DNA of 64,000 nt from a virus: the IMG/VR virus record IMGVR_UViG_3300037606_000137, positions 46,381 through 110,380 of that record; one strand, given 5' to 3'. Positions within the stretch are counted from its first letter, which is position 1, and each line of letters opens with the position of its first letter. The position numbers were made by a program, and so were the translations under genes. The notes beneath the pieces were generated by a model. The model made no database searches, was not told the origin of the DNA, and saw only the letters and a program-made list of their open reading frames with translations. Shown here piece after piece: positions 3,288 to 64,000 of the stretch.

Positions 3288-3599
3288 ATGAAATATATTA
3301 AATTATCAATTACAACATTTTTCTTGTTTATATCATTTTGGTTAACAACATTAATATTCGGAAAACAATTTTCTGTGAATAACTTAGAATATGCTATTGA
3401 CAATCATACAGAAAACACATTAATGATTTTAATCATATCAACAGTGTTATCTGCAATCGGTATATTTTTGTTAGGTCTATTAGCTCTTTTTATACATTAT
3501 GTTTTTGTAAAATTAACATTTCATAATGAAATTAGAAAAGATGCTTTTTTATTATTGAAATATAGACGTAATAAACAAAATAAATTAAAAACAAAATAA
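3288..3599 (+). CDS. Small two-helix membrane protein
   Basis: 103 residues, function not recognised. There are two strongly hydrophobic segments (about residues 5-22 and 44-72) separated by a short polar loop, then a basic Lys/Arg-rich tail, so probably an inner-membrane protein with a cytoplasmic C-terminus. A TATATTTG promoter lies 19 bp upstream. The stop is immediately followed by the repeat gene at 3602, so the two are probably co-transcribed. Confidence 0.6.
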   Translation: MKYIKLSITTFFLFISFWLTTLIFGKQFSVNNLEYAIDNHTENTLMILIISTVLSAIGIFLLGLLALFIHYVFVKLTFHNEIRKDAFLLLKYRRNKQNKLKTK

Positions 3600-3676
3600 A
3601 TATGAAAGAACAAATTAAATCATTTTTATTAAAAATTAAAATACAACTAAAATTAGTTAATTGGAATTCTATATCA
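3583..3676 (+). repeat. 94-bp perfect direct repeat, copy 1 of 2
   Basis: The 94 bases from AATTAAAAAC to TTCTATATCA are identical to 4337-4430. Copy 1 covers the end of the membrane-protein gene and the start of the first repeat gene. Copy 2 lies inside the coding frame of the second repeat gene, so it marks a recombination or duplication junction. Confidence 0.9.
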
Positions 3677-4249
3677 GTGCGTTATAATTTATCAGAATCA
3701 TTCATTAGAGAAAATAAAGATAGAGTTGATTGGTTTCGTATATCACAATATCAAAAGTTATCAGAAGCTTTTATAACAGAATTTAAAGATAAAGTTGATT
3801 GGAATAATATATCAGGTTATCAAAATTTATCTGAATCTTTTATCAGAGAATTTAAAGATTTAGTTGATTGGGGTTATATATCAATGTATCAAAATTTAAC
3901 GGAAAATTTCATTAGAGAATTTAAAAATGAAGTTGATTGGTATTATATATCATGTAGTCAAAAGTTATCAGAATCATTCATTAGAGAAAATAAAGATGAT
4001 GTTAATTGGGATTATATATCATGTTTTCAAAAATTATCAGAAGAATTTATAATAGAAAATAAAGATAGAGTTTATTGGGATTATATATCAAGTAATCAAA
4101 AGTTATCCGAATCATTCATATCAAAACATAAAAGATGATATTAATTGGACTAGTTGGTTGTTGAAGTTAGAATTCATAAAGATGATCTAACTGCATTGGT
4201 TCATGATGGTGGTAAAATTAGATGTCAAAAATTTACAATTTTAAATTAA
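3602..4249 (+). pseudogene. 23-residue-repeat protein, broken copy (frameshift and internal deletion)
   Basis: An open frame of 178 residues (3602-4138) holds about seven copies of a 23-residue unit of the form KLSESFIxExKDxVxWxxIS. In the last unit an extra A in a run of four (4131-4134) shifts the frame and brings in a stop at 4136-4138. Just after, 4155-4249 encodes, in another frame, the last ~32 residues of the family's C-terminal domain (LVVEVRIHKDDLTALVHDGG... to FTILN). The rest of that domain is missing, so a deletion has also occurred. It also lacks the family's N-terminal MRT..EIIKLL leader. The truncated N-terminal product could still be made. Intact relatives are at 4254, 62423 and 63551. 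Confidence 0.8.
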
Positions 4250-4253
4250 AAGT

Positions 4254-5594
4254 ATGAGAACATTAAAAGAAATTATAAAATTATTAGATATTAAAACTAA
4301 ATCAAAAGATTTAAAAAAGGTTTTATATGATAAATTAATTAAAAACAAAATAAATATGAAAGAACAAATTAAATCATTTTTATTAAAAATTAAAATACAA
4401 CTAAAATTAGTTAATTGGAATTCTATATCACAATATCAAAAATTGTCTGAAGATTTTATGAGAGAACATAAAGATTATGTTAATTGGCATTCTATATCAT
4501 ATTATCAAAAGTTATCAGAATCATTTATAACAGAACATAAAGATAAAGTTAATTGGGAACGTATATCAAGTAATCAAAAGTTATCTGAATCTTTTATTAC
4601 AGAACATAAAGATAGTGTTGATTGGAATGCTATATCACAATTTCAAAATTTATCTGAATCTTTCATATCAGAACATAAAGATTATGTTTATTGGTATAAT
4701 ATATCTTGTTATCAAATGTTATCTGAATCTTTTATTACAGAACATAAAGATAAAGTTAATTGGGAACGTATATCTTGTTATCAAAACTTATCAGAAGAAT
4801 TCATTACAGAACATAAAGATAAAGTTTCTTGGTATGATATATCACAATATAAAAAATTAACTGAATCATTCATTACAGAATTTAAAGATTATGTTGATTG
4901 GGAATGTATTTCACATTATAAAAAATTAACTGAATCATTCATTGAAAAACATAAAGATGAAGTTTTTTGGCCTTTTATATGTGAATATCAAAAGTTATCA
5001 GATTCATTTATAACTAAATTTCAAGATTATGTTGATTGGTATCGTATATCAAAATATCAAAATTTATCTGAAGAATTCATTACAGAACATAAAGATAAAG
5101 TTTCTTGGACATGTATTTCAAAATTTCAAAAATTATCGGAAGAATTTATAATTGAATATAAAGATTTAATTGATTGGTCTATTATATCAAAATTTCAAAA
5201 ATTATCTGAATCATTCATATCAGAACATAAATTAGAATTGAATCCTAATAGTTGGTTATATAAGGATGGTGATTATAAATTGGAAGCTATTAGAAAGACT
5301 GGTTTATATACAACTGATGATAATTATGTTTATGGATTTAAAGGTATTAGACGGGATCGTTATAGTAAATTTAACTTTCAATTTCAATACTTAAAAGGTC
5401 AAGAATATGAATGTCATGCTGATTTCAATAATGATAATGAAAATTCATTTGGTTTGTCTGTTTGGACAAAAAAAGAAGCAACTGATTATTGTAAACAATT
5501 GGTTGTTGAAGTTAAAATACACAAAGATGATTTATCAGCATTAGTGCATAATGGTGGTAAAATTCGATGCCAAAAGTTTACAATTTTAAATTAA
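4254..5594 (+). CDS. 23-residue-repeat protein with conserved C-terminal domain
   Basis: 446 residues: a leader (MRTLKEIIKLLDIKTKSKDL), a short linker, about twelve repeats of 23 residues (consensus LSESFITEHKDKVxWxxISxYQK) and a C-terminal domain of ~110 residues beginning SWLYKDGDYKLEAI and ending KIRCQKFTILN. The leader is fused to a segment (MKEQIKSFLLKIKIQ) whose DNA equals the start region of the preceding broken gene, so this gene looks like a recombinant; relatives at 62423 and 63551 have a different linker there. Similar repeat proteins occur in large phages and giant viruses, with no known function. No signal peptide or membrane segment is seen. It may be a solenoid binding protein. 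Confidence 0.8.
   Translation: MRTLKEIIKLLDIKTKSKDLKKVLYDKLIKNKINMKEQIKSFLLKIKIQLKLVNWNSISQYQKLSEDFMREHKDYVNWHSISYYQKLSESFITEHKDKVNWERISSNQKLSESFITEHKDSVDWNAISQFQNLSESFISEHKDYVYWYNISCYQMLSESFITEHKDKVNWERISCYQNLSEEFITEHKDKVSWYDISQYKKLTESFITEFKDYVDWECISHYKKLTESFIEKHKDEVFWPFICEYQKLSDSFITKFQDYVDWYRISKYQNLSEEFITEHKDKVSWTCISKFQKLSEEFIIEYKDLIDWSIISKFQKLSESFISEHKLELNPNSWLYKDGDYKLEAIRKTGLYTTDDNYVYGFKGIRRDRYSKFNFQFQYLKGQEYECHADFNNDNENSFGLSVWTKKEATDYCKQLVVEVKIHKDDLSALVHNGGKIRCQKFTILN
4337..4430 (+). repeat. 94-bp perfect direct repeat, copy 2 of 2
   Basis: Identical to 3583-3676 (offset 754). Inside the gene at 4254 it includes the ATG that starts the upstream broken gene, now an internal Met. Confidence 0.9.
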
Positions 5595-19120: not shown

Positions 19121-19191
19121 GGTCCATTGGTGAAATGGTATCATGACTCACTGTCTATGAGTTGTCGTCGGATCGTAACCGGCATGGACCG
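19121..19191 (+). tRNA. tRNA-Asp (GUC)
   Basis: 71 nt. Acceptor GGTCCAT/ATGGACC (perfect), anticodon arm ACTCA-CTGTCTA-TGAGT giving GTC, T arm GTCGG-ATCGTAA-CCGGC, discriminator G. Position 37 is T, where a purine is usual. Confidence 0.85.
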
Positions 19192-19217
19192 CTAAAGAAA
19201 CAAAAATAATAAAATAA

Positions 19218-19290
19218 GGTCCTGTAGCACAATTGGTAGTGTAACTTGTTGTCTGCGAGATGGTTGACGGTTCGAATCCGTTCAGGACCG
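19218..19290 (+). tRNA. Second tRNA with anticodon GUC (Asp-type)
   Basis: 73 nt. Acceptor GGTCCTG/CAGGACC (perfect), D stem GCAC/GTGT, anticodon arm ACTTG-TTGTCTG-CGAGA (outer A-A mismatch), T arm GACGG-TTCGAAT-CCGTT, discriminator G. Read literally the anticodon is GTC again with T37, like its neighbour, so the pair looks like a diverged duplication. Confidence 0.75.
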
Positions 19291-19310
19291 CAATAAACTG
19301 AGTTAGTGTA

Positions 19311-44181: not shown

Positions 44182-44676
44182 TTATAAAATTTCATTCATT
44201 AACTCGTTTATTAATGATATTGATTTTGTATTTATTTCTTCGTTATTCATATCACTAATAGATACAAAATCAATATCATTACCATTATCATCAATAAAGT
44301 ATTTAGAATAATTAATTGATTTAATATTTATATCATAATTATCATCTGAATATTCAGCTGGTTGTAATTGTGTTTCTCCCGTTTCTAATTTACCGCCATT
44401 ATTTATTACAGTATATTCAAAATCTAACTGTTCATCAAAATCCACTTCTTCATTTCTTATAGAAACTTCAGCATTGAACATTTCACCTGGATTTTCATAT
44501 CCATTATTACTTGTTATAACGAATTTACCAACTTTCAAATCTGTATGAATTTTACGTTTAAAATCATATTTATAATTAGTAATTATAAAATCAATTATTT
44601 CGATGGTTCTATTTTTTGAAAAATCTCTATCAGATTTGAATTCTTCAAATAATTTAATTATAATTTTCTTTTCCAT
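44182..44676 (-). CDS. Hypothetical protein, 164 residues
   Basis: Not recognised. Acidic (SDDNYDINIK, DDNGNDIDF), mostly beta. Overlaps the end of the next gene upstream (44658-45278) by 19 nt. Confidence 0.5.
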   Translation of the reverse strand: MEKKIIIKLFEEFKSDRDFSKNRTIEIIDFIITNYKYDFKRKIHTDLKVGKFVITSNNGYENPGEMFNAEVSIRNEEVDFDEQLDFEYTVINNGGKLETGETQLQPAEYSDDNYDINIKSINYSKYFIDDNGNDIDFVSISDMNNEEINTKSISLINELMNEIL

Positions 44677-45278
44677 TTTAATTGTGTGCTAATATTTTTT
44701 GCATTACATTGTTGTAATAATTTCATAATAGTATTTCTGTTTTTATCATTCAATTTATCAATTGAATTTATAAAAAATATATTATTTTCATATAACGATT
44801 TAAAATCATTTTTAGTTATTTGTGTATTTAATATCTTAGTTAATTTTTCAATCTTTAAATTTTCTTTTACATACATTACACATTCAAACGGAAATTCATT
44901 TTCAGTCATATCTGTTGTAAATGTTAATGGATTTTCTGGATATTCATCATCTGGAATATTATCTAAAATTTCTACAATTTCACCCATATTATTTTGTACA
45001 AATGCAACAGATATATCATCTGGTGCTTGTGTAGGATCAACAAATATTTTTTGTACCATTCCAATTGTGTCTGGTTTAGACATATCAAAATCTTTAGCAT
45101 ACATTGCAATATCTAAACATTGTTTAGACACAACACTATTTATTGTTTTATCTGCTGGAAAATTAATATCATCTGAATTTGAAACAGCAATTTCGTTGAT
45201 TTGTTTATTTTTAAACTCACAAACAGCTATAGCAATTAGAGTTTGTTTCTTTTTCCACTCATTTAAAGATATAATCAT
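44658..45278 (-). CDS. Hypothetical protein, 206 residues
   Basis: Not recognised. N-terminus MIISLNEWKKKQ resembles the MIT(N/S)I-x-(E/D)-(F/Y)-K leaders seen at 41378 and 60289. Contains a small hydrophobic core and helical C-terminal half. Probably a virion-associated protein. Confidence 0.5.
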   Translation of the reverse strand: MIISLNEWKKKQTLIAIAVCEFKNKQINEIAVSNSDDINFPADKTINSVVSKQCLDIAMYAKDFDMSKPDTIGMVQKIFVDPTQAPDDISVAFVQNNMGEIVEILDNIPDDEYPENPLTFTTDMTENEFPFECVMYVKENLKIEKLTKILNTQITKNDFKSLYENNIFFINSIDKLNDKNRNTIMKLLQQCNAKNISTQLKWKRKL

Positions 45279-45313: not shown

Positions 45314-45401
45314 ATTTAAAAATTGAATTCATCATAATTTTCATCGTCTACATCTTGTTTAAATGCACCAACCGTATAAGAAATTATTTCTTCTTCCTGT
45401 G
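45314..45401 (-). repeat. 88-bp direct repeat, downstream copy (nrdB tail fused to GIY-YIG gene)
   Basis: Matches 46606-46693 at 87 of 88 positions (mismatch C45390/G46682). It encodes the last 27 residues of NrdB, here in frame at the end of the GIY-YIG gene. Confidence 0.95.
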
Positions 45402-46200
45402 TATTAACATACATATCATAATGATATAATTTCCAGCCTTGTGTTTTACCGTATTTGGGCGCAATAGATGTATTAATTCGTTTATCTAATGTTGATTTAG
45501 ATATATTGTATTTTTTACAAAAATCTATTATATCATTACCTTTTACATTATATACACCATTTAATGATGATGTAAATATATAATTTAATGCACGTTTACT
45601 TTTTTTCCCTTTATTGGCTTTCCCTATTTTATTTCTTATTTCTTGTGTAACTTCAACACCATATCTAGCATTACCTTTACCACTCTGTAATTTCGATAAT
45701 AATTTTAATGTTTCTGTTGTATGTTTTTTTCCTTTAAAATATCCACCTGCATCTTTTTGTAATTTGTTTCTTAATTTTCTTTGTATTTTAGCTTTTTCAA
45801 CACCATATATTTCTTCATATGTTTTACCGGCATGATTAGGAGGTCGATTATCAATACAAAAATTACATAAAGTTCCACGTTTAATAGTTTCACCATCAAT
45901 TGTTCCTATTTCTTTAATTAAAATAGATTCTAAATCATATACAATACTTTCATTTGTATTTTGATTTATTTCTATAATAAATGGATTTAAATTCAATTTA
46001 AATATTTTATCTAATTTATTATATAAAATTGAATTTATTCTACTTTTACGGTTTGTTTTATAATATGTTATATGATTATTTTTTCTCTTGTTTTTACCTT
46101 TTCCAACATAAATTGGTTCATATAAAAAACAAATATCATTATATTCATATTTTCCTGGTTTTCTTGGGTCTAAATATATGTAATTATAAAAAATATCCAT
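45316..46200 (-). CDS. GIY-YIG homing endonuclease with NrdB C-terminal tail fused on
   Basis: 294 residues. GIY-YIG nuclease domain: YIYLDP at 7-12, IYVGKGKNKR at 30-39, and DLESILIKEIG with the catalytic Glu near 91. NUMOD3-like DNA-binding segments follow: FKGKKHTTETLKLLSKLQSG and GNARYG. A final helix-turn-helix is seen at 222-245. The last 27 residues (268-294, QEEEIISYTVGAFKQ... to EFNF) are almost identical to the C-terminus of NrdB, due to an 88-bp direct repeat. The gene is part of a ~1.3-kb cassette inserted at the 3' end of nrdB; its start overlaps the preceding cassette gene by 17 nt. Confidence 0.9.
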   Translation of the reverse strand: MDIFYNYIYLDPRKPGKYEYNDICFLYEPIYVGKGKNKRKNNHITYYKTNRKSRINSILYNKLDKIFKLNLNPFIIEINQNTNESIVYDLESILIKEIGTIDGETIKRGTLCNFCIDNRPPNHAGKTYEEIYGVEKAKIQRKLRNKLQKDAGGYFKGKKHTTETLKLLSKLQSGKGNARYGVEVTQEIRNKIGKANKGKKSKRALNYIFTSSLNGVYNVKGNDIIDFCKKYNISKSTLDKRINTSIAPKYGKTQGWKLYHYDMYVNTQEEEIISYTVGAFKQDVDDENYDEFNF

Positions 46201-46624
46201 TAGTATTAATCGTTGTATTTATTGTTTCTATTTTGTATTCAGAATATAATATTTGTTTAAAAATATTTATATTTTTTCCATAAACAAACAATTTTTTATC
46301 ATAAATACGACATGGTGTAATATCTAAAACGTTTTTTGTTTTTTTGTTAATAACAACAGAATGTAAAATACATAATAATGTTGTGTTTTCTTTATTAATT
46401 AATACATAAAAACCTAATAATTTATCATATGTTTTATTTTTTTTAATGAATATATTAACATTATTATGACAATTATTTTCACCATATATACTAAAATTTG
46501 TATTTGTAGATAATAATTCAATTGAATCATTATTAATAAAAACTTCTAATTTTTTAAATATTTTAGAAGTTTTTATTGGTAAATACCACTTATGTATTAT
46601 ATCCGATTTAAAAATTGAATTCAT
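46184..46624 (-). CDS. Cassette-carried protein of unknown function, 146 residues
   Basis: Start chosen at ATG 46624 (MNSIFKSD), 17 nt inside the end of nrdB in another frame; ATG 46636 is an alternative. No family recognised. Mostly strands, with HSVVINKKTKNVLDITPC in the middle. It lies inside the 1.3-kb insertion between the two 88-bp repeats, so it travels with the GIY-YIG gene. Confidence 0.55.
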   Translation of the reverse strand: MNSIFKSDIIHKWYLPIKTSKIFKKLEVFINNDSIELLSTNTNFSIYGENNCHNNVNIFIKKNKTYDKLLGFYVLINKENTTLLCILHSVVINKKTKNVLDITPCRIYDKKLFVYGKNINIFKQILYSEYKIETINTTINTNGYFL

Positions 46625-46693
46625 CATAATTTTCATCGTCTACATCTTGTTTAAATGCACCAACCGTATAAGAAATTATTTGTTCTTCCTGTG
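46606..46693 (-). repeat. 88-bp direct repeat, upstream copy (native end of nrdB frame)
   Basis: Encodes NrdB residues 330-357. Identical to 45314-45401 except one base, at an offset of exactly 1292 bp, which would be the size of the inserted unit. Confidence 0.95.
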
Positions 46694-47681
46694 GTGCTTC
46701 CTGAACAGTATTACCACCAATCCAATTACCAATCCATGAAATTGGGTTTTTAACTTTATCAAAAATTGGATCTAATTTTATCATTTTTAATCGATTATTA
46801 GTTAACCATTGCATATATTCAATTAATATATCTGAATTTAACCCAATAATAGATCCATCTTTAAATAAATATTTAGCCCATTCAATTTCTTCATCTGCTG
46901 CATCTTTATACATTTGAATAACCGTTTCTTTACAATCTTCTGCAATTTGTAGAAAACCTTCACTTTCATCTTCACCCATGCGTTTTAAAACAAATGAACT
47001 AAAACCCATATGTAAATTTTCATCTCTTGCAATTAACGATATAATTTTAGCATTACCTGTCATTTTTTTATTTTGTGCAAAAGCAAAAGAACATGCAAAT
47101 GATACATAAAATCTAATACCTTCTAAAATGTTAATAGAAACTAAAGTTAAATATAATTTCTTCTTTCTATCATATTCAGATTCATCTGGTATTTTATTAA
47201 TCAATGCATCGTAATATTTTGTAACCGAACTTGCTCTTTTAATAATTTCTTCATCTTCTAAAATATTATCCAATACTTCTGTAGGATTTGTATAAATTTG
47301 TTTAATAATATATGTGTACGAATATGAATGTATTGTTTCAGAAAACTCCCATGCTTTAGCAAATGCCTCTATTTCAGAATTTGTACAATTTTCTAATAAA
47401 TTAGAAATACCTCGTGATTGAATACTGTCTAGTAATATTTGGTACCCAAGATTTTTTGTAAATATAAATTTCTCATGTTCAGATAAATTATTAAAATCAC
47501 TTTTATCTTTACTTACATTAATTTCTTCTGGTCTCCAAAAGTATGATAATTGTTGTTTAAACATATTAAACAATTTTTCATATTTTGGTTGATCATATCG
47601 TTGTATTCCCATTCCTTCTTTACCGAAAAAAATTGGTTGTAACGAATTTTTTTTTTGATTTGTATTTATTATTGATTTCAT
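46608..47681 (-). CDS. nrdB: Ribonucleoside-diphosphate reductase beta subunit (class I)
   Basis: 357 residues. Diiron and radical residues are all present: Asp85, Glu115, His118 and radical Tyr122 (SETIHSYSY), Glu188 (NILEGIRFY), Glu221 and His224 (ARDENLHMG). Supplies the tyrosyl radical to NrdA for making dNDPs. The last ~20 residues (YTVGAFKQDVDDENYDEFNF) are the tail that in this family docks onto the alpha subunit. That tail is duplicated at the end of the GIY-YIG gene downstream, showing that a cassette has entered here and supplied a replacement 3' end. Confidence 0.95.
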   Translation of the reverse strand: MKSIINTNQKKNSLQPIFFGKEGMGIQRYDQPKYEKLFNMFKQQLSYFWRPEEINVSKDKSDFNNLSEHEKFIFTKNLGYQILLDSIQSRGISNLLENCTNSEIEAFAKAWEFSETIHSYSYTYIIKQIYTNPTEVLDNILEDEEIIKRASSVTKYYDALINKIPDESEYDRKKKLYLTLVSINILEGIRFYVSFACSFAFAQNKKMTGNAKIISLIARDENLHMGFSSFVLKRMGEDESEGFLQIAEDCKETVIQMYKDAADEEIEWAKYLFKDGSIIGLNSDILIEYMQWLTNNRLKMIKLDPIFDKVKNPISWIGNWIGGNTVQEAPQEEQIISYTVGAFKQDVDDENYDEFNF

Positions 47682-47775: not shown

Positions 47776-50055
47776 TTATAAAGAACAACCACCACTATCA
47801 CAGCCACTATCACTACCCATATCATCAACATTGTCTGATTTTTTATCATCTGTATTTGCATAATATAAAGTTTTTAATCCCATTTTATATGAATATAAAA
47901 TATCTTTAATTACACCACCTAATGATATACCCTCACTTGAATATTGATAATAATGGTTAGCACTTATAGATTGATCCATCCATTTTTGTATAACTGCTAC
48001 AATGTTTGTATAACCATCATTTGTTTTCATATCATATGCCATTTGATATTTATTTTTCAATTTTCTCATTTCAGGTAATACTTGTTTAACTAAACCTGAT
48101 TTTGATCGTTTAGATGTTATTAAACCTCTAGGTGGTTCAATTCCGTTTGTAGCATTTTGTATTACAGATGAACTTTCAGCTGGAAATTCAGCAGATAGTA
48201 CAGAATTTCTTAACCCGTGTAATTTTATATCTTTTCTTAATTTTTCCCAATCACACGAATGTTCTCTAGTTACAATTGTATCAACATTTTTATTATATCT
48301 ATCAATCGGTAAAACACCTTTACTATATGTTGTTTTATCGAACCATTCACATGCACCAAATTCTTGTGCTAATTTATTAGATGCTAATAATAATGAATAC
48401 TGGAAGTGTTCAAATAATTCATCAACTTTTTCTAAACTTTCACTATCAGTATATTTTAAATTCTGTTTAGCTAACCAATATGCAAAATTAGTAACACCAA
48501 CACCAATTGAACGTCTTTTTAACATTTTACGAGATGCATTAATTGGATAATCTTGATGTGTAATAACAAAATCTAAAATTCGAACCATATATTCAGAACA
48601 TTTATACAATTCTTCATTGTTTTTTATATTACCTAAATTATGTCCAGCTAAAACACATAAAGCAATTTCACCCTCAGATAAATGTTCTGTTGCAGGATTC
48701 CAATCAATATCATAAATACTTTTTAATGGTGAAACCGGTAATAAAATTTCTTGACATAAATTGCTCATTGTCAAATGATCAGTGAATGGTGAATTTTCAT
48801 TTACATTATCTATAAACATTGCATATATTCTACCAGTACCGATTCTTTCTTGTGCAAAAGCATTCATTAAATCACGAGCATTTACAGTTTTACGTTTGAT
48901 TTTTTTATTTGATTCATATTTGATATACAATTCGTCAAATTTATCATTATAACCAAAAACGTCATATAAACCTGGAACATCATTTGTAGAAAATAATGAT
49001 ATAGTTTTGTTTTCAATAAATCTTTGGAAAAATAATTTAGAAAATTGAATTGAATAATCAACATGTCTTACTCTATTATCGTCTGTACCTTTATTGTTTT
49101 TTAATACTAAAATATCTTCAATTTCTTGTGTCCACCATGGAAAATGTATTGTTGCGCCAGCTTTTCTAATACCACCTTGTGAACATGAATGTACTGATGC
49201 TTGTGCTTGTTTTAAAAATGGAACAATTCCTGTATGAATAACTTCACCACCACGAATCTCTGCACCTTCTCCTCTAATACGACCCATATTTAAACCTATT
49301 CCAGCTCGTTTAGCAACATATTTTGTAATTGCTGTATTCATACTTGTTATTGTATCTAAATCATCAGCAGAATCGATTAAAACACAACTACTATATTGTC
49401 TATTAGGTGTTCTTACTCCAGCCATTATTGGTGTAGGTAATGATATTTTTTGTGTTGATATTAAATCATAAGCTTCTTTAATATGATTAATTCTTGTATC
49501 AATTGGATAATTCATAAAAGATGTCATAGCAATTAGCATAAATGCATATTGTGGTGTTTCATAAATTGTTTTGCTTTTTCTATGTTGAACTAAATATTTG
49601 TCCATCAATTGCTGTAATCCAGCATATGTAAAATCATAATCTCTTTTATGTTTTAATACTAAATCTAATATAGATATTTCTTCAGATGTGTATTTTTCTA
49701 ATATGATTTTATCATATACTTCTCGTGAAACATTATCTGTTATTACTTTCCATAAATGCGGCATTTCTGTTTTTACTTCAAATACCTCTTTACGTAATAA
49801 GTAATTTAATAAATTACCCGCAACTATTTGATAATTTGGATTTTCTTCCGTAATTAAATCTACAGCCGATTGAATCAATACATTATGTATTTGACTAGTT
49901 TTCATATTAGCAAAAAACTGTATCTCTGCATTCATTGCTATATCACTTGCAGATACTCCATTTATTCCATCACACGCCCATAATAATACTTTATTTATTT
50001 TCTCTGCATCAAAGATCGTTTTTTCACCAGTTCTTTTTGTTACATTTAATTCCAT
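47776..50055 (-). CDS. nrdA: Ribonucleoside-diphosphate reductase alpha subunit (class I)
   Basis: 759 residues. N-terminal ATP-cone (VTKRTGEKTIFDAEKI), then the ten-stranded barrel: PTPIMAGVRTPNRQYSSCVL (catalytic Cys), NLCQEILLP (with the Asn-x-Cys-x-Glu catalytic trio), a second Cys (CVLAGHNLG), and FPAESSSVIQNATNGIEPPR. The C-terminus ends DSGCDSGGCSL, the Cys pair that shuttles reducing power. It reduces ribonucleotides with NrdB. The minus-strand nrdA-nrdB order is that of an operon, with a hairpin between. Confidence 0.96.
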   Translation of the reverse strand: MELNVTKRTGEKTIFDAEKINKVLLWACDGINGVSASDIAMNAEIQFFANMKTSQIHNVLIQSAVDLITEENPNYQIVAGNLLNYLLRKEVFEVKTEMPHLWKVITDNVSREVYDKIILEKYTSEEISILDLVLKHKRDYDFTYAGLQQLMDKYLVQHRKSKTIYETPQYAFMLIAMTSFMNYPIDTRINHIKEAYDLISTQKISLPTPIMAGVRTPNRQYSSCVLIDSADDLDTITSMNTAITKYVAKRAGIGLNMGRIRGEGAEIRGGEVIHTGIVPFLKQAQASVHSCSQGGIRKAGATIHFPWWTQEIEDILVLKNNKGTDDNRVRHVDYSIQFSKLFFQRFIENKTISLFSTNDVPGLYDVFGYNDKFDELYIKYESNKKIKRKTVNARDLMNAFAQERIGTGRIYAMFIDNVNENSPFTDHLTMSNLCQEILLPVSPLKSIYDIDWNPATEHLSEGEIALCVLAGHNLGNIKNNEELYKCSEYMVRILDFVITHQDYPINASRKMLKRRSIGVGVTNFAYWLAKQNLKYTDSESLEKVDELFEHFQYSLLLASNKLAQEFGACEWFDKTTYSKGVLPIDRYNKNVDTIVTREHSCDWEKLRKDIKLHGLRNSVLSAEFPAESSSVIQNATNGIEPPRGLITSKRSKSGLVKQVLPEMRKLKNKYQMAYDMKTNDGYTNIVAVIQKWMDQSISANHYYQYSSEGISLGGVIKDILYSYKMGLKTLYYANTDDKKSDNVDDMGSDSGCDSGGCSL

Positions 50056-50380: not shown

Positions 50381-52699
50381 TTAAAATATTATACTTGGTT
50401 TTAAATATTTAAATATTTTTACACCTGAATTTGGTATAACTAAAATTTCATTTTTAGTAATTTTTTCTTTTATTTCATTATGTTTCATTGGTTGTCTATG
50501 TTTAATAATATTTTCTTTTACCCAATAGTTCATTATACCACCTTTTGAATAACCAATAAATTCAAAATTTAAATTTGATAAACTGTTTCCTAAATTATGA
50601 TCATAATCAGAATAAAATTTTATTTCTTTTACATTAATTAGTTTTTTACCTATTTGTATAGTTTTATAATTTTGTAGAAAATGATTAAATAATTTAGAAC
50701 TACCACCAGTAACCGAATGATATTTTAAAGTACCAACTCTTATTACTTCAATAACACCGTCTTTTTTTGCAAAGAAATTATGTCCAAACGTATATAACAT
50801 AATTAAAGAACCTGCTTTTAAATCACATTTATCTTTTTTTAAAATTAATCCTAAATTTAAAGATGCTCCACGTTTACCATAAAAACAGTTTTCTTTTTCA
50901 AATGATCTAGCTGTTTTATTATCAATAATCTTAACTATACAATCACGAGCATAAATTTTATTGATAGTTTTATTTGCTGCATGTAATATATAAGATTTTA
51001 AAATATCTTTTTGATTTAAATTATCCCATTCAAAATCTTTAATCCAACATTTAAAAGAATTGTTTTTTTCGGCTTCAACTGATAATGAATAAAAATATTT
51101 TTTATCTATATCATTTAATGAATAATTAAAACTATCAATATAACATATTTCATATTTCATATTATTTTTTGTATAAAAACAATAATTATTATGTTCCATA
51201 AAATAATCAATATTATTATGTTCTAAAAATAATTTCATTTCATTATTATACAATATATGTTTATCTTGTAATGAATAAATAGTCGAACCAGAATCATATA
51301 TTTTATGATAATTAAAATTTATAATCTCAATATCATTATGATTATATTTTGTTTCAATATTGTCTTTAATATAAAGTTTTATATTTTGTTTATCATTAAA
51401 ATTTACATATTTATAATCTGGTAATTTATATTTAATAAAACAAAATTTAGTAGTATCTAAAAATATATTGTTATTATCATGTACATAATAATGATTAATT
51501 AAATTTAACTCTTTTATAAAAATATCAAATACAATATTATTATTATAATTACTATCACAATTGAAATCAATAATGTAATTATTATCAAATTCGATTGACG
51601 CAATTATATTATTATTGATTATTAATTCATTATTAATTATTTTATAATTTTGTATTGGTGAATAATTATTTTGAATATAATTTTTTAATTTTAATTTAAT
51701 ATCATTTTTATCATTTAACCAATCAGTTTCATAAATGTGATATAATTTAATATTTTTATTTATACAATTAATAGATTTATTAAAGTGAAAATCATTATCT
51801 TTATATTTATTACAATGCCAATAAACACCATTATACTCAATAGCTAAATTTATATCTTTACAATAAATATCTAAATGTTTACCATCTAATATAGTTTTAT
51901 TTGTTTGTTCACATATTGTATAATCAGATACATAGTTAAATATGTCTTGCTCAGCCCACGATATTTTATTATTAATAGGATTACATAAAATACAAGGACA
52001 AACATTGTATAACTTAGTTCTTTGATATAATAATTTATAAGTTGTTATGTAATCTTTATTACATATATTACATTTTATTTGTAATTTATTATCTGTAATT
52101 ATTTTAAAATTAAAAATATTATAATCTGTAGTTAATTTATTAGTATAAAAATCAATCCATTTTTTTTGTATTTTATTTTTAAAATAAATAGATTGATTAA
52201 AACTATCAGAACCGTATTTTTTATTATTAGTTGCTATTGTTTTTAATTTTATATCTGGATGTGCTAATGGCGATTTATTTCCATACCTTTCTAAATTTGT
52301 TATTAATTTCTTTTCTTGCACTTCAGGAACTAATAATGTATTTTTTACACCGTACCGATTCAAACATGTTTTTTTGTATTTATCTTTACCCTCTTGTGTT
52401 TCCATATAATTGTTACTACCATATAATTCATTACATGTTAAATTTGCTTTAACTCTTGAACATTTTTTACAACTATAAAAATTATACCTATTATAATTTT
52501 GAACATACTTATAATACATCAATTGCCTTTCATCTTTACATAAATCACAAACAGCTGTAATTTTATCATGTGAATTAATTGATATATCTTCAATCAATAC
52601 AACAGTTAATTCATCATCGTTTTTTACATAATTCTTATCTTCATAATATTTTTTATTGCGATTTGTAATATTAATTAATATTTCTTTTTCTTTTATCAT
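50381..52699 (-). CDS. Large Vsr-like homing endonuclease (772 residues)
   Basis: The N-terminus has a Cys cluster (CDLCKDERQ, CKKCSRVK), then NUMOD-like repeats of a YG..N / NLERYGN type (NELYGSNNYMET, LNRYGVKNTLLVPEV, NLERYGNKSPLAHPDI, NKKYGSDSF), a second zinc cluster (CNIC...CPCILC), and a Vsr/EDxHD-type core (LDIYCKDINLAIEYNGVYW, HCNKYKDND, YHIYETDWL). The rest is a long Asn-rich region and a C-terminal domain (~600-772) of unknown role. The Vsr core is related to that of the endonuclease at 302-1339. It lies divergently, 87 bp from the split DNA polymerase gene at 52787, which suggests a mobile gene that fractured or moved next to polymerase. Confidence 0.78.
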   Translation of the reverse strand: MIKEKEILINITNRNKKYYEDKNYVKNDDELTVVLIEDISINSHDKITAVCDLCKDERQLMYYKYVQNYNRYNFYSCKKCSRVKANLTCNELYGSNNYMETQEGKDKYKKTCLNRYGVKNTLLVPEVQEKKLITNLERYGNKSPLAHPDIKLKTIATNNKKYGSDSFNQSIYFKNKIQKKWIDFYTNKLTTDYNIFNFKIITDNKLQIKCNICNKDYITTYKLLYQRTKLYNVCPCILCNPINNKISWAEQDIFNYVSDYTICEQTNKTILDGKHLDIYCKDINLAIEYNGVYWHCNKYKDNDFHFNKSINCINKNIKLYHIYETDWLNDKNDIKLKLKNYIQNNYSPIQNYKIINNELIINNNIIASIEFDNNYIIDFNCDSNYNNNIVFDIFIKELNLINHYYVHDNNNIFLDTTKFCFIKYKLPDYKYVNFNDKQNIKLYIKDNIETKYNHNDIEIINFNYHKIYDSGSTIYSLQDKHILYNNEMKLFLEHNNIDYFMEHNNYCFYTKNNMKYEICYIDSFNYSLNDIDKKYFYSLSVEAEKNNSFKCWIKDFEWDNLNQKDILKSYILHAANKTINKIYARDCIVKIIDNKTARSFEKENCFYGKRGASLNLGLILKKDKCDLKAGSLIMLYTFGHNFFAKKDGVIEVIRVGTLKYHSVTGGSSKLFNHFLQNYKTIQIGKKLINVKEIKFYSDYDHNLGNSLSNLNFEFIGYSKGGIMNYWVKENIIKHRQPMKHNEIKEKITKNEILVIPNSGVKIFKYLKPSIIF

Positions 52700-62422: not shown

Positions 62423-63511
62423 ATGAGAACAATAGAAGAAATTATTAAATTATTAAATATTAAAACCAAATCGAAAGATTTAAAGAAAGTTTTATATGAT
62501 AAATTAATTAAAAAAAATATTGATTATGACATTTTAATTCAATATCCAGAATTAATTTTATTATTTAAAAATTCAAATAAAATTGACTTAAATAAATTAT
62601 ATTGGTATCATATATCAATTAATCAAAAATTATCTGAATCATTTATCAGAGAATTTAAAGATAAAGTTTATTGGTCTAGTATATCAGAATATCAAAATTT
62701 ATCTGAATCTTTTATTACAGAACATAAAGATAAAGTTTGGTGGGATCGTATATCATGTTTTCAAAAATTATCTGAATCTTTCATATCAGAACATAAAGAT
62801 AAAGTTTCTTGGTATGATATATCACAATATCAGAAATTATCAGAATCATTCATATCAGAACATAAAGATAAAGTTAAATGGTATCATATATCTGAATTTC
62901 AAAAATTATCTGAATCATTCATATCAGAACATAAAGATAATTTTAATTGGTATTATATATCAGAATATCAAAAATTATCTGAATCATTTATCAGAGAATT
63001 TAAAGATAAAGTTTCTTGGTATTATATATCAGAATATCAAAAATTATCTGAATCATTTATCAGAGAATTTAAAGATAAAGTTTCTTGGTATAATATATCA
63101 AAATATCAAAAATTAACAGAATCATTCATTACAGAACACAAAGATAAATTAAAATTGAATGATGATAGTTGGTTATATAAGGATGGTGATTTTAAATTGG
63201 AAGCAATTAAAAAGACGGGTTTATATACAACTGATGATAATTATGTTTATGGTTTTAAAGGTATTAGAAGTAATAGATATTCAAGATACAATTATCAATA
63301 TCAATATTTAAAAGGTAAAACTTATGAATGTCATGCTGATTTTAATAATGATAATCGAAATTCATTTGGTTTGTCTGTTTGGACGAAAGAAGAAGCAACA
63401 AATTATTGTAATGAATTAGTCGTTGAAGTTAAGATACACAAGGATGATTTATCAGCATTAGTGCATAAAGGAGGAAAAATTAGATGTCAAAAATTCACAA
63501 TTTTATCATAA
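62423..63511 (+). CDS. 23-residue-repeat protein, intact
   Basis: 362 residues. Leader MRTIEEIIKLLNIKTKSKDL, a linker (YDILIQYPELILLFKNSNKI), about eight 23-residue repeats (LSESFIREFKDKVSWYYISEYQK type), and the C-terminal domain (SWLYKDGDFKLEAIKKTGLY ... KIRCQKFTILS). Adjacent repeats are nearly identical at DNA level (two 69-bp units around 62968-63100). It belongs to a family with members at 3602, 4254 and 63551, and is one of two copies at this end of the window. Confidence 0.85.
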   Translation: MRTIEEIIKLLNIKTKSKDLKKVLYDKLIKKNIDYDILIQYPELILLFKNSNKIDLNKLYWYHISINQKLSESFIREFKDKVYWSSISEYQNLSESFITEHKDKVWWDRISCFQKLSESFISEHKDKVSWYDISQYQKLSESFISEHKDKVKWYHISEFQKLSESFISEHKDNFNWYYISEYQKLSESFIREFKDKVSWYYISEYQKLSESFIREFKDKVSWYNISKYQKLTESFITEHKDKLKLNDDSWLYKDGDFKLEAIKKTGLYTTDDNYVYGFKGIRSNRYSRYNYQYQYLKGKTYECHADFNNDNRNSFGLSVWTKEEATNYCNELVVEVKIHKDDLSALVHKGGKIRCQKFTILS

Positions 63512-63550
63512 TAAATAGTATTATATTTATATTTACAAAAAATTAAAAGC

Positions 63551-64000
63551 ATGAGAACATTACAAGAAATTATAAAATTATTGGATATTAAAACTAAATC
63601 AAAAGATTTAAAAAAAGTTTTATATGATAAATTAATTCGTAAAAATATTGATTATGACATTTTAATTCAATATCCAGAATTAATTTTATTATTTAAAAAT
63701 TCAAATAAAATTGACTTAAATAATGTTGAGTGGTCTTATATATCAGAATATCAAAATTTATCTGAATCTTTTATTATTGAATTTAAAGATAAAGTTAATT
63801 GGGATTCTATATCATGTTTTCAAAAATTATCTGAATCTTTCATATCAGAACATAAAGATAAAGTTTCTTGGTATGATATATCACAATATCAAAAATTATC
63901 AGAATCTTTTATCAGAGAATTTAAAGATAAAGTTAAATGGTATCATATATCTGAATTTCAAAAATTATCTGAATCATTCATATCAGAACATAAAGATAAT
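63551..64000 (+). CDS. 23-residue-repeat protein, cut by window end
   Basis: At least 150 codons, in frame to the right edge. Leader MRTLQEIIKLLDIKTKSKDL and linker (IRKNIDYDILIQYPELILLF) match the preceding gene, followed by at least four repeats (LSESFIIEFKDKVNW, LSESFISEHKDKVSWYDIS). It forms a tandem pair with 62423. Confidence 0.85.
   Translation, partial: MRTLQEIIKLLDIKTKSKDLKKVLYDKLIRKNIDYDILIQYPELILLFKNSNKIDLNNVEWSYISEYQNLSESFIIEFKDKVNWDSISCFQKLSESFISEHKDKVSWYDISQYQKLSESFIREFKDKVKWYHISEFQKLSESFISEHKDN

Follow-up and report, generated by a model that had tools for sequence, protein, structure and literature searches.

Why does the end of a phage ribonucleotide reductase gene occur twice, once in nrdB itself and once at the end of a neighboring endonuclease gene? 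The question arises in a window (the whole stretch of DNA analyzed, 64,000 nt long and part of a 110,380-bp virus record) in which all the genes discussed for this locus lie on the minus strand. The answer that we consider very likely is that a free-standing homing cassette lives at the nrdB 3′ end and swaps it.

The repeat and the genes that carry it

The repeat is direct and 88 bp long, with two copies, which make up its whole family, at 45314-45401 and 46606-46693 (spacing, 1292 bp; 87/88 positions identical). Relative to nrdB, it runs from 2 nt ahead of codon 331 to 2 nt past the stop codon; one copy is the end of nrdB, and the other is the end of a GIY-YIG gene downstream. Judged from the sequence, a near-perfect in-frame repeat of this kind is far beyond chance, and the arrangement is no assembly artifact, because it recurs in independent assemblies (L004 and L054/L055, described below). 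The copies differ at a single base, the first of codon 334 (46682, G; 45390, C; plus strand). This difference is nonsynonymous, as nrdB has CAA for Gln (Q334, QEEQIISY..) and the endonuclease copy has GAA for Glu (QEEEIISY..). The original prediction had placed two nrdB-tail copies at these positions and this offset, with the GIY-YIG gene and an unknown gene between them, all of which is confirmed. It had also described the two tails as the same 27 residues, in frame and one base different; the frame and the base hold, and the residues match at 26/27 (E334Q).

nrdB as a whole (46608-47681, 357 aa) matches Pfam Ribonuc_red_sm (PF00268, E=1.8e-54). The repeat boundary at 46693 divides it into a body that carries residues 1-330 of a class I ribonucleotide reductase small subunit (46694..47681, PF00268) and a 3′ end (46606..46693; codons 331-357 with CAA at 334, the stop codon, and 2 nt), which we take to be a putative replacement on the basis of the repeat and by analogy with the L004/L005 pair below. 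The gene for the partner subunit, nrdA, lies upstream (47776..50055; PF02867, E=1.9e-124). Downstream, a companion gene of 150 aa, here called UNK (46184..46636), starts within the nrdB tail in a different frame; it matches no Pfam family and carries the conserved pattern NNCHNNV..G[FY]Y..HSV..DITP. The GIY-YIG ORF (45316-46200, 294 aa with the tail included) has a recognizable homing nuclease domain (LEM-3_GIY-YIG, 7.9e-09; NUMOD3, 9.4e-05; both above the Pfam cut-off) and is 55% identical to its L004 homologue. Its body, of the LEM-3/COG3680 type with NUMOD3 (45402..46200), has no stop codon of its own, and its C-terminal 27 residues are encoded by the second repeat copy (45314..45401; codons 331-357 plus stop). 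This copy is the putative displaced native nrdB end, as inferred from the repeat and from its L004 equivalent, which is the native end of L005. Next follows a 206-aa gene (44658..45278) whose homologue comes after nrdB in L005 and L014.

GIY-YIG nucleases often reside in introns, and in several relatives nrdA contains split inteins accompanied by GIY-YIG genes. Both facts would suit a group I intron, or an intein, with a 3′ part that imitates the end of nrdB. We give this reading next to no credence, since nrdB is complete and reaches its own stop before the cassette, the window contains no Rfam intron family, the cassette ORFs contain no intein motifs, and the displaced copy repeats the end rather than completing a broken gene.

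Occupied and empty sites in related phages

Among the nrdB relatives that we fetched from viral contigs, L004 and L005 are near-identical phages that differ in presence or absence at one site, L004 being occupied and L005 empty, with flanks that are 99.3-99.96% identical. In L004, nrdB is followed by a UNK homologue, the GIY-YIG gene, and then the downstream genes; in L005, those genes follow nrdB directly. Positions 6259-8789 of L004 and 4990-7520 of L005 (~2.5 kb) are 99.96% identical, and these segments begin at the start of the endonuclease tail in L004 and at the start of the native nrdB end in L005. The upstream 5070 bp are 99.27% identical, with the differences clustered in a few patches. 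One of these is the nrdB tail, whose final ~80 bp contain 13 differences between L004 and L005, several of them amino-acid changing. Because the L004 segment matches the native nrdB end of L005 at 99.96%, the endonuclease tail is native in L004. On this sequence comparison, the L004 endonuclease tail is the displaced native nrdB end, now lying downstream and matching an uninterrupted relative, and the L004 nrdB tail is a diverged import, a foreign C-terminus joined in frame to nrdB. For the window, this is inferred by analogy only, as no near-identical empty relative of the window phage was found (in the tree set, no nrdB body exceeds 75% identity to that of the window). The pair supports the original prediction that the cassette brought its own nrdB end and that the native end became the endonuclease C-terminus. 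Moreover, L005 has the order predicted for an empty site (nrdB, then the gene at 45278), and L014 has it too, apart from a small additional ORF after nrdB.

The same pair bears on a simpler origin, in which the nrdB 3′ end was duplicated locally in tandem and the endonuclease was then inserted between the copies, with no foreign end involved. The window copies, 87/88 identical as if recent, would agree with this. However, the L004 tails differ at many sites, and it is the distal copy, not the nrdB copy, that equals the L005 native end, so that local duplication is already contradicted for L004/L005. Furthermore, the single difference in the window falls on a codon that is altered at other occupied sites, and in L017 the nrdB tail groups with L018, whereas the body groups with L015. 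Altogether, we regard local duplication as quite unlikely. Divergent synonymous sites between the copies had been proposed as a refutation of cassette import; L004 has such sites, and they are expected of an imported tail, which removes their force as a counterargument.

Import by a cassette would also involve co-conversion of flanks, and in L004 the nrdB tail is replaced up to the insertion, with 9 silent changes in the patch at 4036-4105; the distant patches could instead reflect separate recombination events. More generally, the L004/L005 differences lie in short patches (1187-1298, 3346-3652, and 4036-4105), those in the nrdB body being all silent, within sequence that is otherwise the same, a distribution that would fit the introduction of several short conversion tracts.

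Comparable structures occur elsewhere. In the distant lineage L054/L055, nrdB (QQTE..) is followed by a TevI-type GIY-YIG gene and then by UNK, which ends in a second NrdB tail (QETE..). Codon 331 is the first codon of the displaced tail in the window, in L004, and in L054 alike. In L017, a tail of the native type has degenerated and contains an internal stop; its DNA is 92% identical to the tail of the unoccupied L007, and this broken tail reads as a fossil of the same event. According to tree and sequence comparisons, the nrdB body of L017 is near that of L015 and its nrdB tail near that of L018, a mismatch that fits a tail traveling with the cassette. No repeated nrdB tail was found in the loci of the GIY-YIG relatives L040-L048, and a search of viral contigs with the window GIY-YIG protein alone gave no match.

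The C-terminal tail of NrdB is the element that binds NrdA. This general knowledge raises the possibility that the endonuclease tail was selected for docking on NrdA, either to inhibit ribonucleotide reductase or to localize the endonuclease to it, and the fusion is indeed kept in frame in the window, in L004, and, on UNK, in L054. Nevertheless, in L054 the tail sits on UNK, not on the nuclease; an intact displaced tail is present in only 3/20 nuclease-bearing loci and is broken in L017; and the L004 tail is recipient sequence without any change, which is what a by-product would show. We thus consider selection for docking very improbable, and the original suggestion that a tailed endonuclease could compete for NrdA finds no support, given that the L054 tail is on UNK and most occupied loci have no displaced tail. 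The NrdB-like tail reads best as a by-product, given that the element lacks its own stop codon at this point, and as the right-hand homology arm.

Altered codons at occupied sites

We surveyed 113 non-redundant nrdB loci, counting as occupied those with a recognized nuclease within 1.5 kb downstream. In almost all unoccupied nrdB genes, codons 330-334 read PQETE, PQEHE, or PQEQE. All 20 nuclease-bearing loci are altered at codon 332 and/or 334 (19 with Gln, and L059 with Q331M and E334A), and 89/93 loci without a recognized nuclease keep Glu..Glu (Fisher p=1.3e-18). Thus, the alteration is found in 20/20 occupied and 4/93 unoccupied loci. The single base that separates the window copies (46682) is a codon 334 change of the kind seen at other occupied sites and is the proposed resistance substitution. 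Since the copies are one base apart, any resistance in the window rests on that base. The change is not uniform, as L054 is altered at codons 332 and 336 and not at 334, and L059, which has a different nuclease, does not show Glu-to-Gln.

Occupied loci were found mostly through a UNK motif scan and partly through nrdB similarity, and the nuclease queries were derived from occupied loci. When the downstream genes of Glu..Glu loci were read by eye, no nuclease was found directly adjoining nrdB (6 of these loci have <700 bp downstream). A conserved GIY-YIG-like gene (ENPW..GFVYxITN..GRKY) that lies further downstream in both classes was left out of the count.

The Fisher count ignores kinship of the loci, for which reason we built a tree from the nrdB body without the tail. 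On this tree, occupancy requires 13 changes, at least 10 of them on well-supported branches, and in independent pairs the site changes with occupancy in 8-9/10 and against it in 0 (p about 0.004). These results bear on the possibility that it is the phylogeny or the biochemistry of certain nrdB lineages, and not nuclease resistance, that accounts for the Gln codons. In favor of a lineage effect, L058, L060, and L108 have Gln-334 and no cassette was found there; the cassette could, however, have been lost by recombination between the repeats. Against it, the association survives the independent-pairs test on the tail-free tree, L004 and L005 differ at these codons with nrdB otherwise near-identical, and the change is common to at least five nuclease types. 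A lineage effect therefore retains only a small chance. L019 has Gln and UNK, with no nuclease recognized next to nrdB.

At least five nuclease types are found among the occupied loci. The window, L004, and the L141 group have a LEM-3/COG3680-type GIY-YIG, which in L131 is fused to UNK; L155, L145, and L176 have another GIY-YIG type; L054 has the TevI type; and L143 has another GIY-YIG-like type. In L010, L017, and L018, a zinc-ribbon protein with a VSR-like EDxHD-type nuclease region (assigned by eye) is fused to UNK, and L059 has a further nuclease-like protein. In the absence of cleavage data, it looks as though homing has converged on nrdB codons 330-336 as a target. The replacement tail is probably an allele resistant to its own nuclease, with both cleavage and resistance inferred; an economical reading is that the conservative Glu-to-Gln change would abolish the target at little cost and leave the tail working. 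A CNNNG motif of the I-TevI type was rejected as the cause of resistance, as CACAG is lost in L004 and kept in the window and L017.

The homing model, its precedents, and the companion gene

The sequences show how the cassette is built, where each of the two L004 tails came from (by comparison with L005), that the junction falls on the same codon in separate cases, and that altered codons go with occupancy. On these observations we propose the following cycle for the cassette. When a relative with an empty site infects the same cell, the GIY-YIG endonuclease would cut the nrdB of this relative near codons 330-336, the cleavage and its target bases being inferred. The break would be repaired from the donor (the direction of repair is likewise an inference), with nrdB as the left arm and the nrdB-derived tail of the donor endonuclease as the right arm. 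The recipient would thereby gain the replacement nrdB end (GAA to CAA, Glu-to-Gln), UNK, and the endonuclease body, and its native nrdB end would be pushed downstream. There it would close the endonuclease ORF with 27 codons and a stop, and it may serve as the homology arm for the next jump. nrdB would remain intact, although expression of the hybrid gene is inferred without transcript data, and the Gln codons would shield the occupied copy from cutting if the inferred resistance holds.

Mobile ORFs that replace gene ends have been described in mitochondria, namely at atp6 of Allomyces macrogynus and at atp6, atp9, cox2, and nad3 of Glomus sp. (PMC3630166). Allomyces atp6 had been named as a comparable case for this locus, and the anatomy is the same: an endonuclease gene lies near the 3′ end of an essential gene, a foreign C-terminus is joined to the host gene, and the displaced native C-terminus lies downstream and matches uninterrupted relatives. 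In contrast, the hosts of the nrdB cassettes are tailed phages, and nucleases of several classes converge on a single stretch of codons. The displaced end prolongs the ORF of the nuclease (window and L004) or of the companion (L054), the replacement end carries a recurrent Glu-to-Gln change, and a companion domain is nearly always present.

Within phages, the closest likeness is to the free-standing homing endonucleases of T4-like phages (seg and mob genes, MobE, SegG, and SegF), which show co-conversion and have nrdB as a known target (PMC2988022). Both involve a nuclease gene beside an essential nucleotide-metabolism gene, flank co-conversion, and marker replacement; however, the T4 genes are intergenic, with a distant cut site and no duplicated gene end, whereas the nrdB cassette inserts inside the coding end and supplies a new one. 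In Aeh1, mobE breaks nrdA into two polypeptides that reassemble (PMC2988022), which likewise places a homing endonuclease within a phage ribonucleotide reductase gene, but here nrdB stays whole. Nuclease genes near ribonucleotide reductase genes have also been surveyed (PMC10448857). In the literature searched, which covered few subscription papers, we found no earlier report of gene-end replacement in phages; as such, the phage occurrence is what appears to be new, the kind being already known from fungal mitochondria.

Gene-end replacement by a homing element, known earlier from a few fungal mitochondrial genes, is thus met in phages, with a near-perfect before/after pair and one codon stretch hit by many unlike nucleases. 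This makes it testable how an element can enter a coding sequence without harm from the start, how it builds in resistance yet keeps the protein, and how it gains a right-hand homology arm. The last 27 residues of a phage NrdB may have a history separate from that of the rest of the gene. The locus also exposes a conserved companion domain tied to ribonucleotide reductase.

This domain, UNK, accompanies 19/20 nuclease-bearing loci. A DNA-motif scan for it that made no use of nrdB returned 36 stretches, two of them spurious, and those with enough upstream sequence have nrdB directly upstream with Gln at 332 and/or 334. Close pairs show a dN/dS of about 0.07-0.24, which indicates that UNK is under purifying selection. 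The window UNK had no match in GenBank phages, and two scans of bacterial genomes with narrow motifs found none. The UNK of L131 and L010 matched one unannotated gut phage and gave two weak cyanophage-type matches in GenBank phages, and phrog_37148 matches the UNK domain of L131, L054, and L010 as well as the gut phage protein. The gut phage member carries a SEC-C motif and has no nrdB within the stretch read.

Modeling the structure of UNK on 8 sequences gave a poor result (pLDDT 60) that matched no fold, and a second model, on 23 sequences, reached a pLDDT of 88. C39, H74, and D85 are invariant in these 23 sequences, and the model places the Cys at the start of a helix, the His in a strand, and the Asp later. 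None of the PDB matches of the model (to staphopain, SpvD, and an amidase; E 0.8-1.9) reaches significance, and its top viral structural match is A0A6J5NTA5, a GIY-YIG_COG3680 protein of an uncultured Caudovirales. The predicted Cys/His/Asp layout possibly resembles that of papain-like enzymes. A speculative extension, which we rate as improbable, is that UNK is a small papain-like Cys-His-Asp enzyme acting on the NrdB tail, for example a deamidase that turns Gln into Glu. If true, the element would alter the host-gene DNA against cutting and then mend the protein. A deamidase would explain why UNK stays with Gln-type tails even as the nuclease type varies, and why both UNK and Gln persist in L019, where no nuclease was recognized next to nrdB. 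Roles of UNK in homing, in ribonucleotide reduction, or as an enzyme on the Gln-bearing tail all remain open.

Further elements lie in and around this operon, which is a homing hot spot. nrdA is split by intein halves in L014, L017, L018, L019, L024, L029, and L032, mostly with a GIY-YIG gene between the halves; the main site is near residue 435, and that of L014 is near residue 628. In the window, a 772-aa homing-endonuclease-like protein (50381-52699; PHROG 3339 and 559; DUF7487) is encoded just upstream of nrdA. A second GIY-YIG relative, L002 (G000:C1:482-760), lies in the same record outside the window, with about 44% identity over 100 residues. In L057 (Tenacibaculum phage PTm1, AP019524.1 48752-50806), the nrdB ORF has ~685 codons and matches NrdB in two pieces, a sequence pattern that suggests an intein. 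Elsewhere in the window, there are large 69-bp tandem-repeat arrays at 3538-5281 and 62479-63975 (flanking copies 86-91% identical), two adjacent tRNA-Asp genes with the same anticodon (gtc) at 19121-19192 and 19218-19291 within a five-tRNA cluster, and, inside a coding region, a 25-nt inverted repeat (44212-44236 and 44257-44281) that is 96% complementary with a 20-nt loop.
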